A DNA stretch of 36,382 nt, taken from NCBI GenBank assembly GCA_947632835.1, contig CANRQI010000005.1, positions 1-36,382 on the forward strand. The letters run 5' to 3'. The stretch's first letter is position 1; each line of letters begins with the position of its first letter. The notes beneath the pieces were generated by a model. It worked only from the letters and a program-made list of their open reading frames with translations. It was not told the DNA's origin and did not search any database. The position numbers and the translations under genes were made by a program. This stretch comes from an uncultured Clostridia bacterium (lineage in GTDB: Bacteria; Bacillota; Clostridia; TANB77; CAG-508). Shown here piece by piece: positions 22,561-34,986 of this stretch.

Positions 22561-22660
22561 TTTAAGTTTCGGTGTTTTTTGAAGTATACTAAGTTACGAA
22601 AAATATATGTTTTATTCATTATCCCAGCAACGCACAGTCTGTAAAATTTTAAAATTCTGT
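22561..22660. mobile_element. Inverted-repeat element copy 3, half copy next to the CRISPR leader
   Basis: It begins TTTAAGTTTCGGTGTTTTTT and runs in step with copy 2 through AAATATATGTTTTATTC, ATCCCA, CGCACAGTCTGT and AAAATTTTAAAATTCTGT. It stops abruptly at about 22660, in the middle of the central palindrome. The other half, including the GGTCCCCAC box and the second terminal repeat, is absent. It is therefore a truncated copy, ending 17 bp before the CRISPR promoter. Confidence 0.8.
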
Positions 22661-22723: not shown

Positions 22724-23079
22724 GTTATACTTTACTCATTAGAGATTTGAAACCCTTTGTCTGTTTGAAAAACCCATGTGCTTTCCTTGTTATACCTTAC
22801 TCATTTGAGATTTGAAACCCCTCAACTTTTTCAGAAACTGTTGTTGCACTTACTGTTATACCTTACTCATTAGAGATTTGAAACGGTCCTCTTAAAGCCA
22901 ATATAATGATGATAGCCATGTTATACCTTACTCATTAGAGATTTGAAACTTTGCTTCAAGTTTTCTTGCCTTCTTTTGCATTTTAATTTTGTTATACCTT
23001 ACTCATTTGAGATTTGAAACATTGATAACATACCGTTTTTGATATTTGCAACACGTTATACCTTACTCATTTGAGATTT
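22724..23079 (+). CRISPR. CRISPR array: six 30-bp repeats, five spacers, no cas genes in the window
   Basis: Repeats start at 22724, 22789, 22855, 22920, 22991 and 23055. Each begins GTTATACCTTACTCATT and ends GAGATTTGAAAC, with A or T at position 18 (A,T,A,A,T,T in order). Repeat 1 has one change (C8 to T). Repeat 6 loses its last five bases, as expected at the leader-distal end. Spacers are 35, 36, 35, 41 and 34 nt and share no similarity with each other or with the window that I can see. A 30-bp repeat ending in GAAAC with 34-41 nt spacers fits type I-B or type III systems. No cas1, cas2 or effector gene is present within 22 kb upstream or 13 kb downstream, so the array is isolated or served in trans. 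Confidence 0.97.
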
Positions 23080-23097
23080 TACAAAAATATTTTTGGA

Positions 23098-23124
23098 TAC
23101 AGCTTTTTTAAGCTGTACTTTTTT
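23098..23124 (+). terminator. Rho-independent terminator of the CRISPR transcript
   Basis: TACAGCTT (23098-23105), a TTTT loop and AAGCTGTA (23110-23117) are followed by CTTTTTT. It lies 19 bp after the last degenerate repeat. With the leader promoter this makes the array a closed transcription unit, separate from the deaminase gene. Confidence 0.85.
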
Positions 23125-23201: not shown

Positions 23202-23230
23202 TTGTAATATTCCGTAATATATGATATAAT
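23202..23230 (+). promoter_or_regulatory. Strong extended -10 promoter of the deaminase gene
   Basis: TTGTAA (23202-23207), a 17-bp spacer and TATAAT (23225-23230) with TG one base before the -10. The start codon is at 23268, with GAAAGGA at 23256-23262. Confidence 0.8.
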
Positions 23231-23267
23231 ATTGAAAGTATATAAAAATTTTTATGAAAGGAATATT

Positions 23268-25751
23268 ATGGAAAATTTAGTTTATTTTGGAAAATTTTAT
23301 TTAGACAAAGAAAAAGATATTATCGTCAATCTTTTTAAATCTAATGAAGATGAATTAACTTACATTATTGAAACTCCAAATCACGGTACAGGAAATTTAA
23401 TTTCTAACCTTGCTAAAATCTGCAATGTTCAAATCACTAAAAATCAAAATAATATGAAAATAATAATAGGAACAATACCAGCTTCATTAAATGCAAATAA
23501 TGAAACTCTTTTTGTTTTTAATCTAAATAACAAACATATTGCAACTATTTATGGAGATGGAAAAATTGAGCAAAACGTAAAGATACCAGCCATTGTAAAA
23601 ACTTTAATGTCTCAAACTAAAGACTATTCTTTAAGTATAGATCACACTCTAATAAATAGTTATATTTTAAAGAAATCAAAATTCAGAACTGATTTACATA
23701 CTCACCTATATGCAAATTTACCTTCTGATGCATTAATTGCTCTTGGTATTAAACATCAAATTAGATTTCCTTTATATTTCATTAGAAAACTTAATTTAAC
23801 ATTATCATCAAGTCAAGAAATGCTAGTTGAAAATTACAGAAAAGAAATCGAATTAAAATATTTTGATTCTCCACTTGATACCAAAACTTTAGATAGAAAA
23901 ATTAAAGATGAAACATATTTGAATTTTGCAGATTTAATTTTAAATAATATTGAAAATGCAGAGGATAATATCAAAAAAATCAGAAATCGTCTATCTCTTG
24001 TAAAAGACGGGCAAGCAGTATTCACAAATTTAGAGAAATTGTACACATTTAGATATATTTTTGCAAAAGGAGAAAAATCTAAAATATTAACAGATATAAC
24101 TCCAGAAAAAATTCTTAATATTCCAGATTTAGATATAAAAAATTATTTAACAAAAATGTATGAAGATTCTCTTCCAGAAAGTACATACTCAAAAAATACA
24201 ATTTTACAAGATAAGCTTTTATGGGTTGCTAGAGAATATCAAAAACAAGGAATTGTATATGCAGAAATTGCATCAACTGATGTTTGTAAAAAAGGAATGC
24301 ATGCCGTAAATTATTTAATGCAACTTCATGAAATATTACCAAAAATTAAAGAAGAAACTGGTGTAGATTTAAGATTTTTAGGAGCTATTAGAAGAATTTG
24401 GATTTCTCCAAAAGAACAAGAAGAAACTAAAGAAATTTTAAAAATTATGTCAAAAAGCCCTTATGTAGTTGGTTGCGATGTAATTGGTGAAGAAGTTACA
24501 GACATATCAGACATTGAAGATATAATAACTGATTTAGTAAAATTCGCTATAAAAGAAAATAATGGCTTTACAATCAGATTACATGCTGGAGAAACAGATG
24601 CTTTTTCTGAAAATGTTGAAAAAGCTGTTACAATAATAGAAAATGCAATTGGCAAAAGCAAAATAATTCCTAGATGCAGAATTGGTCACGGCTTATATGG
24701 TATAGGTGCTAGTAAAGAATCTGATGAAAGAATTATGAAAAAAATTAAAAAAATAAATGCAATCTTAGAGTTCCAATTATCTTCAAATGTTAGATTAAAT
24801 AACTTAACAAGACTTGAAAATCATCCTATAAAATCTTATCTTTCTCATGGTATAGATTGTGTTCAAGGTACTGATGGTTTTGGAATGTATGGAACTGATA
24901 CCATTGAAGAACAAATGGCACTTCAAAACTTATTAAACTTAAGTGAAGAAGATTTTCAAAAAATGAAACAAGTAGAAAACAAAATCTTAGAAGAAAATGA
25001 AATCAACTTTAAGAAAAAAGTAAAATCTTTTGAAGAATTTTTAAATGGTAGAACAATGTCAGAAGCTTTAATAAATGAAGAATATGAAATGTTTCAAACT
25101 GTTAAATTTACTAATACACAAAAAACTGATAATAAAATTGATTCTAGTGAAAACTTGAAACCAAAAATTAAAGAATTACCTACAAATAAAGTACCTATTA
25201 TTATAGCTGGTGGAAGCTTCAATACAAACGGTAGAGAAACAGTTGTAGATGAAAACGGAAAGAAAATCTTAAAGGATTTAATTCAAAACATAGATAACAA
25301 CAAAGCATATTTTGTTATTGGTCATAAAATGCAAGGTTACGAAAAAGCAATTGTAGACATTTCAAATGAATTACATAAAAAATTTGAAATTAATGCAATT
25401 GTACCAAAAAGAGTTAATAGCGAAACTAAAGATACCTTATTAAATAGTAATGTTGATGGAATTAGAGTATCTGTTGAACCTGAAGAAATAGGAATATATA
25501 AAAGTTTTAACTATGAAATTTTTGAACGTAGAAATTCTGTAGTTGTTGCATTTGATGGCAACTCTCCTGTTTCAAACTTAGTTCAAGAAGCTAAAAATGG
25601 TAAAGGAAAAGCTAAAATCTTTGTAAATGGAAATGTTGAAACATTAAAAGAAAAAGCAAAATCTCTTAGTGGATATGTTGAAGAATTTAATGAAGATGAA
25701 AACATTTCTGAAAAAATAATTAACTGGAATCCAGATTTAAAACAAAAATAA
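23268..25751 (+). CDS. Adenosine/AMP deaminase-like protein fused to a C-terminal SLOG/LOG-like domain
   Basis: This 827-residue cytoplasmic protein has three parts. Residues 1-138 are an unrecognised, beta-rich domain. Residues 139-610 are an adenosine-deaminase fold with every metal and catalytic residue: H144-T-H146, H439-A-G-E442, H474 in RIGHGLYG and D536 in GTDGFG. The usual second Asp is Gly. The H146-H439 spacing is nearly 300 residues against about 200 in mammalian ADA, so there is an insertion of about 100. Residues 643-815 look Rossmann-like, with IIIAGGSF, YFVIGHKMQGYEKAI and RRNSVVVAFDGNSP...EAKNGKGKAKIFV. This pattern resembles SLOG/LOG nucleotide-binding domains. The start is set by GAAAGGA before ATG 23268. 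It lies 189 bp after the CRISPR array on the same strand. Deamination of an adenine nucleotide or nucleoside is well supported; a defence role is inference. Confidence 0.85.
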   Translation: MENLVYFGKFYLDKEKDIIVNLFKSNEDELTYIIETPNHGTGNLISNLAKICNVQITKNQNNMKIIIGTIPASLNANNETLFVFNLNNKHIATIYGDGKIEQNVKIPAIVKTLMSQTKDYSLSIDHTLINSYILKKSKFRTDLHTHLYANLPSDALIALGIKHQIRFPLYFIRKLNLTLSSSQEMLVENYRKEIELKYFDSPLDTKTLDRKIKDETYLNFADLILNNIENAEDNIKKIRNRLSLVKDGQAVFTNLEKLYTFRYIFAKGEKSKILTDITPEKILNIPDLDIKNYLTKMYEDSLPESTYSKNTILQDKLLWVAREYQKQGIVYAEIASTDVCKKGMHAVNYLMQLHEILPKIKEETGVDLRFLGAIRRIWISPKEQEETKEILKIMSKSPYVVGCDVIGEEVTDISDIEDIITDLVKFAIKENNGFTIRLHAGETDAFSENVEKAVTIIENAIGKSKIIPRCRIGHGLYGIGASKESDERIMKKIKKINAILEFQLSSNVRLNNLTRLENHPIKSYLSHGIDCVQGTDGFGMYGTDTIEEQMALQNLLNLSEEDFQKMKQVENKILEENEINFKKKVKSFEEFLNGRTMSEALINEEYEMFQTVKFTNTQKTDNKIDSSENLKPKIKELPTNKVPIIIAGGSFNTNGRETVVDENGKKILKDLIQNIDNNKAYFVIGHKMQGYEKAIVDISNELHKKFEINAIVPKRVNSETKDTLLNSNVDGIRVSVEPEEIGIYKSFNYEIFERRNSVVVAFDGNSPVSNLVQEAKNGKGKAKIFVNGNVETLKEKAKSLSGYVEEFNEDENISEKIINWNPDLKQK

Positions 25752-25767
25752 AATTATGATTTTTAAC

Positions 25768-25806
25768 ATCGGAAAGTCATTATATTTTGACTTTTCGATT
25801 TTTTTA
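25768..25806 (+). terminator. Rho-independent terminator of the deaminase gene
   Basis: ATCGGAAAGTC (25768-25778) pairs with GACTTTTCGAT (25789-25799) with one G-U pair, followed by TTTTTTT. It lies 17 bp after the stop codon. Confidence 0.88.
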
Positions 25807-34789: not shown

Positions 34790-34986
34790 TTTAAGTTTCG
34801 GTGTTTTTTATAATATACAAAAGTTACGAAAAATATATGTTTTATGAATGAGCTTCGTGGGGACCGACTAGCTACAGTCTGTTAAATTTTATGTTCCACA
34901 GAATTTTAAAATTTTACAGACTGTGTGCAGTTGGGATAATGAATAAAACATATATTTTCGTAACTTAATAATTTTAAAAATACTTA
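34790..34986. mobile_element. Inverted-repeat element copy 4 (short form)
   Basis: It starts TTTAAGTTTCGGTGTTTTTT at 34790 and keeps one palindromic arm: AAATATATGTTTTATGAATG, CGTGGGGACC, TAGCTACAGTCTGTTAAATT, ACAGACTGT and AAAACATATATTTTCGTAAC. The second arm present in copies 1 and 2 is missing and the right end is degenerate (AAAAATACTTA). It ends 2 bp before the stop codon of the queuosine gene and may act as its terminator. About 197 bp against about 346-369 for the long form. Confidence 0.75.

Follow-up and report, generated by a model that had tools for sequence, protein, structure and literature searches.

What is the function of a protein that joins an adenosine deaminase fold to a second, nucleotide-related domain and lies beside a clustered regularly interspaced short palindromic repeats (CRISPR) array? 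This question is raised by an open reading frame (ORF) at 23268–25751 on the + strand of a 36,382-nucleotide stretch from an uncultured Clostridia bacterium (assembly GCA_947632835.1, contig CANRQI010000005.1), which we call the window. All coordinates are positions of the whole window and residue numbers are those of the window protein (P0001). The ORF is real, intact and conserved. Its translation runs through 827 codons to the stop without an internal stop, and it comprises, in this order, an N-terminal domain without a known family, an adenosine-deaminase-fold domain and a TRPM-type SLOG domain, named after the domain by which TRPM channels of animals bind ADP-ribose, both of the latter folds being predicted. 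We favor, with moderate confidence, the reading that it is a ligand-gated nucleotide deaminase with the SLOG domain as its sensor, which likely alters nucleotides upon binding a nucleotide signal.

The deaminase active site is complete, yet two adenosine contacts are lost

The deaminase domain (residues ∼139–590, 23682–25037, + strand, as are all features of the protein given below) is recognized by fold search and by Pfam, in which A_deaminase matches residues 320–568 (E = 3e-19). The preliminary description of this locus saw a complete deaminase active site, and our alignment bears this out: H144 and H146 of the metal motif (H144-T-H146, 23697–23705), H439 and E442 (H439-A-G-E442, 24582–24593), H474 (G-H474-G, 24684–24692) and the metal ligand D536 (T-D536-G537, 24870–24878) are invariant in 26/26 close and 24/24 wide rows, which were hand-chosen from the listed matches and represent 45 distinct sequences. 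While the metal-binding and catalytic set of canonical ADA is therefore present, the two aspartates by which canonical ADA contacts adenosine (Asp19 and Asp296 in mouse) are not. Mapped through alignments to Salmonella ADA, HLDG and TDDP, they correspond to position 148 (Y148 in the window protein, 23709–23711) and position 537; Asp is found at these places in 0/45 distinct rows, and position 537 is Gly in every aligned row. Because both adenosine-contact aspartates are lost, the sequence suggests that the window protein is probably no ordinary adenosine deaminase.

The same two positions depart from canonical ADA in TaqCad1 (Gly264 and Asn549), which according to PMC12669630 does not deaminate adenosine and converts ATP to ITP upon binding cyclic oligoadenylate; restoring the canonical residues did not rescue adenosine deamination and left the variants inert on ATP. 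PMC11645235 likewise gives ATP as the substrate of Cad1 and reports that adenosine, AMP, dATP and CTP were not turned over significantly. Since the two positions are changed in this ATP-deaminating enzyme, the substrate of the window protein would by analogy be a 5′-phosphorylated purine nucleotide and not adenosine.

Two further parts of the chain had been singled out earlier. The insertion of about 100 residues is real (helical, residues ∼190–311, 23835–24200) and longer in the window protein's subfamily, which makes it only partly subfamily-specific, as the distant homologues lack ∼75 residues of it. The N-terminal domain (residues 1–138, 23268–23681), largely beta in the model, keeps its status as a domain of unknown family, as Pfam and PDB sequence searches gave no convincing match; its fold was not searched alone, and in the whole-model searches the deaminase part filled the lists, so that folds outside them could still match.

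The C-terminal domain is predicted to be a TRPM-type SLOG sensor

The C-terminal domain (residues 622–827, 25131–25748) had been called SLOG-like on account of three patterns, GGSF, VIGHKMQGYEKA and NSVVVAFDGN, which the translation places at residues 648–651, 683–694 and 756–765. Fold searches with the predicted model allow this description to be narrowed, chiefly by fold, to the TRPM (LSDAT) type: TRPM heads both fold lists, and the MHR1/2 fold that marks this type is recognized in the predicted model only. A profile of the distant homologues points the same way, with TRPM accounting for 23 of its 24 weak matches in the PDB, and the D763-G-N765 loop (25554–25562) stands where these homologues have a GGG loop. 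No match to a viral structure library was found at E 0.001. When the motif PGGxGTxxE, which we take to be that of LOG enzymes, is used to place the catalytic Glu, it falls on Asn770; this residue is Asn throughout the close rows (26/26) and either Asp or Asn throughout the wide ones (24/24). Because Asn (Asp in distant members) stands at this place, the domain would sense its ligand rather than cleave it.

If the two domains act together as we propose, an ADP-ribose-like ligand, by analogy with TRPM2, would close the SLOG clamshell and thereby set the deaminase site, and under stress ATP or another purine nucleotide would be converted to its inosine form. The role may be phage defence or purine-pool control. 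A bolder version, which we think improbable as a whole, is that of a soluble bacterial counterpart of TRPM2, in which an ADP-ribose-type signal from NAD breakdown would close the clamshell and switch on an ATP-to-ITP deaminase, making the protein a one-protein, CRISPR-free version of Cad1 in gut Clostridia.

The fusion is conserved in architecture and accessory in distribution

A protein search returned 5495 proteins at E 0.001, a figure not limited to full fusions. Conservation of the architecture is evident in all 120 matches listed (query included), which span 99–100% of the window protein, the other rows being 57–84% identical and 788–841 residues long. Where these matches are named they are 'adenosine deaminase' or 'hypothetical protein', and judged by the residues lost the former name is probably wrong for the family. 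In public genomes a relative is encoded by at least 443 of 593 pattern-matched stretches. The 80 loci retained carry Clostridia-type titles, and almost all are labelled metagenome-assembled. A distant branch (27% identity) has the domain order unchanged and includes records named Bacilli, Clostridia, Christensenellaceae, Ignavibacteriales and Azospirillum sp.

The spread is patchy. The fusion is present in 22/56 genomes of relatives (counting the window's own genome and one 44-residue fragment), all of them from the window's own genus (22/36, as opposed to 0/20 from other parts of the order). A class-level survey found it in 15/393 genomes, own genome included; the family of genome G078 has it in 7/150, two of the seven being split matches, and the order of G296, queried with a distant homologue, in 4/198. 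The genus was surveyed in 40 genomes whose completeness is 63–98%, and an apparent absence may therefore at times reflect missing sequence: 23/40 encode the fusion (A_deaminase matches in open frames of 798–854 residues), one of them (G017) together with canonical-type A_deaminase matches, another genome (G033) has canonical-type ADA only, and 16/40 have no A_deaminase match. Because the fusion is found in 23 of the 40, canonical ADA alone in one and no match in 16, the gene looks accessory and no simple stand-in for canonical ADA.

Some distant homologues are longer still. P0124, P0129 and P0146 (969–1003 residues) and P0190 (1016 residues) have an extra C-terminal stretch of ∼190 residues, which in P0190 resembles the nucleoside 2-deoxyribosyltransferase-like family PF15891 (25.7 bits, below the cut-off of 30; E = 1.5e-5). 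Searching short proteins with a profile of the distant C-terminal domain gave 27 matches of 101–335 residues, almost none of which has a Pfam domain; they may be fragments, and they revealed no further architecture.

The neighboring CRISPR array looks incidental

The CRISPR array reported beside the gene is genuine: it occupies 22724–23084, consists of five intact 30-nucleotide repeats and one degenerate sixth, and ends 183 nucleotides upstream of the start codon. If it were functionally linked to the fusion, homologues should co-occur with arrays, a check that the preliminary description proposed. Arrays detected by our own script (≥3 exact 18-mers spaced 52–82) are present at 2/80 family loci (L021 and L086), many loci being cut by contig ends. 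Among the ten neighbors scanned with Pfam, no cas gene was found beside the window array. A single Cas1 was found in the genome; it lies on another contig (C25), and it and its Cas2 best match type II models. At L021, the closest relative and by coordinates the same copy as that of genome G003, Cas9 and Cas1 lie 5–9 kb upstream of the fusion and also best match type II models; a 107-residue ORF near them was taken for Cas2. Csm1 was found over cut-off in 0/40 genus genomes, 12 having weaker matches (own genome, E = 2.6e-6) and Cmr2 not being searched for; the control itself exceeded the cut-off in 3/14. Because arrays are so rare at family loci, the single Cas1 found in the genome is of type II appearance and lies on a different contig, and no Csm1 match passes its cut-off in the 40 genomes, the CRISPR neighbor looks incidental and we rejected a functional link.

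The identical 30-nucleotide repeat forms two small arrays in the genome, at 22724–23084 of the window and at G000:C29:14529-14756. An interspersed repeat, AAGTTTCGGTGTTTTTT...AAGTTACGAAAAATATATGTTTTAT, has three copies in the window where 0 are expected, at 1011–1192 (−), 22564–22615 (+) and 34793–34980 (+). Two of them have inverted arms like a small element of the miniature inverted-repeat transposable element type; the copy left of the CRISPR array shows no such arms and may be truncated.

Weighing the explanations

Several observations weigh against a ligand-gated deaminase with a TRPM-type sensor. The window C-terminal domain has no SLOG match in a Pfam scan, and its profile, searched by sequence, recovers no TRPM; matches to LSDAT all lie under the curated cut-off (best 21.8 against 25.4 bits) and occur in 7/9 distant homologues and not in the window protein, and the PDB matches of the distant profile have weak E-values and cover the domain in part. 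Besides rank 1, the TRPM rows of the fold search tie with molybdenum-cofactor carrier protein (Z 13.4, 159 residues), and the fold match therefore extends beyond TRPM to the SLOG class. The domain also reads IGHKMQG and has no TGGTN motif; it may accordingly bind another ligand or none. In the deaminase, position 537 is Gly in the window protein and Asn in Cad1, which makes the likeness one of loss and not of gain. Finally, some neighbors of the fusion act on purines or nucleotides, which fits metabolism too, and matches to defence models are more numerous near the fusion than far from it. The latter comparison drew on 140 of 182 deduplicated neighbors within two genes and, from the flanks beyond 5.5 kb, on 140 of 234 genes (one gene per cluster, 100–900 residues, window excluded). 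Run through PADLOC at E up to 1e-8, the near set matched 138 models and the far set 71, the tool counting models and not genes.

Some of the neighbors speak for a purine-pool enzyme. On this view an AMP/adenosine deaminase of housekeeping or accessory kind, with the SLOG domain as no more than an allosteric regulator responding to common nucleotides, would tune adenine and inosine nucleotides under stress without killing or arrest. Adjoining genes vary; a cytidine/guanine-type deaminase lies near the fusion at 13/81 loci and a RelA/SpoT-type small alarmone synthetase at 9/81 (e.g. L041:8235-8972), directly upstream in 6, while L124 has a permease that is purine-type by eye and the remaining neighbors are, also by eye, mostly housekeeping-like. 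Two scans of viral contigs confirmed no relative, in keeping with such a role. However, the recurrent neighbors may reflect synteny within a clade, so that an alarmone link and shared descent are both possible explanations of the synthetase; the 16/40 genus genomes without an A_deaminase match, set beside the 23/40 with the fusion, indicate that canonical ADA is not simply replaced, and the loss of both contact aspartates argues against adenosine as the substrate. We regard this explanation as possible and rather doubtful. The alarmone synthetase is sometimes accompanied by an HD-domain gene.

A stand-alone anti-phage effector, akin to a one-protein Cad1 or RADAR, in which an infection-made ADP-ribose-type signal would bind the SLOG domain and the conversion of ATP to ITP would arrest the cell, fits the patchy spread of the fusion and has a precedent in Thoeris ThsA, which PMC12948488 presents as an effector gated by a SLOG domain. 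Cas1 is more frequent in genomes with the fusion (8/23) than in those without (1/17), though this is not significant (Fisher p 0.054; few, related genomes, kinship unadjusted) and Cas1 shares a contig with the fusion in G003 only, lying on another in 7/8. As to the surplus of PADLOC models near the fusion, the 25 of 138 near models listed are candidate (PDC) models, mads, DolB, RmrA and a helix-turn-helix model that match 1–3 genes each, and no Cas system is named among them, whereas Cas1, Cas2 and DpdF appear among the models listed for the far set. With no recognized signal-making gene in the ten window neighbors scanned and no phage or plasmid record covering 80% of the protein, we consider this role unlikely. 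Even less probable is that the SLOG domain is itself a LOG-type enzyme, splitting a nucleotide into base and ribose phosphate, so that the protein would carry out two steps of nucleotide salvage or breakdown. LOG-type proteins do form a second tier of Foldseek matches (ranks 9, 10, 18 and 36) and the deoxyribosyltransferase-like addition of P0190 would suit such an enzyme, but both fold lists are led by TRPM and the place of the catalytic Glu is taken by Asn or Asp in all aligned rows.

Signals and genes around the fusion

The gene had also been credited with a strong promoter and a terminator of its own. The terminator stands, as a terminator-like hairpin at 25768–25799 (+) 3′ of the gene; such sites, of which another lies between the CRISPR array and the gene (23098–23117), number 4 as against 0.8 in shuffled sequence. 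An extended −10 promoter-like site, TTGTAA-17-TATAAT at 23202–23230 (+), matches the consensus at 10/12 positions, this match being its sole basis, yet promoter-like sites are as frequent in shuffled sequence (34.3) as in the window (36), and the strength claimed is therefore not established. A ribosome-binding-site-like GAAAGGAA (23256–23263, +) lies 5′ of the ATG. Elsewhere in the window a NUDIX gene matches the candidate model PDC-S07 in PADLOC, in which the window protein itself has a weak match to SduA (E = 0.0012). The GHKL neighbor has close orthologues in six genomes, all of which have the fusion, so that it offered no information on empty sites; a relative of this downstream GHKL kinase at G010:C23:30527-31273, ∼3.4 kb downstream of the fusion, contains two in-frame stops.

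Comparison with known systems

Cad1 and RADAR exemplify a recent class of effector in which a sensor or a partner gates a nucleotide deaminase. If our reading is true, the window family, which is widespread, adds a further sensor to this class, namely the domain by which TRPM2 detects ADP-ribose. Two questions then arise at once: to which signals the TRPM-type SLOG domains of bacteria respond, and whether the loss of both aspartates marks deaminases of phosphorylated nucleotides generally.

The window protein and Cad1 both lack the two adenosine-contact aspartates. In Cad1, however, the sensor is an N-terminal CARF domain, whereas the evident sensor of the window protein is the predicted SLOG domain at the C-terminus; Pfam and PADLOC gave no CARF match, the N-terminal fold not having been searched by itself. 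Cad1 also belongs to a type III CRISPR locus, of which the Csm1 search of the genus found none over its cut-off. The window protein would be Cad1-like in plan, yet is not classed as Cad1, with neither CARF nor a type III locus found by these searches, which fall short of a clear negative. RADAR RdrB is a bacterial ADA-type deaminase like the window protein; no PADLOC match was named RdrB, and no RdrA-like AAA+ ATPase partner was found among ten neighbors by Pfam or nine by PADLOC. The AMP deaminase/ADGF of Helix pomatia is 15% identical and is not known to have a SLOG domain.

On the sensor side, the MHR1/2 region of TRPM2 is part of a channel, while the window protein is a soluble enzyme without one; the likeness in fold is predicted, and in a domain that lacks TGGTN the binding of ADP-ribose is suggested by analogy. 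Thoeris ThsA resembles the window protein in combining an effector enzyme and a SLOG domain in a single chain, but its enzyme is a SIR2 NADase, in place of which the window protein has a deaminase and no SIR2 match in Pfam, and no ThsB-like TIR gene is present among the ten window neighbors scanned. In the literature searched, which did not cover the primary SLOG survey and so leaves absence unproven, we recognized no paper describing a deaminase–SLOG fusion. From the predicted folds, we read the union of a deaminase with a TRPM-type SLOG domain as a new sensor–effector pairing.
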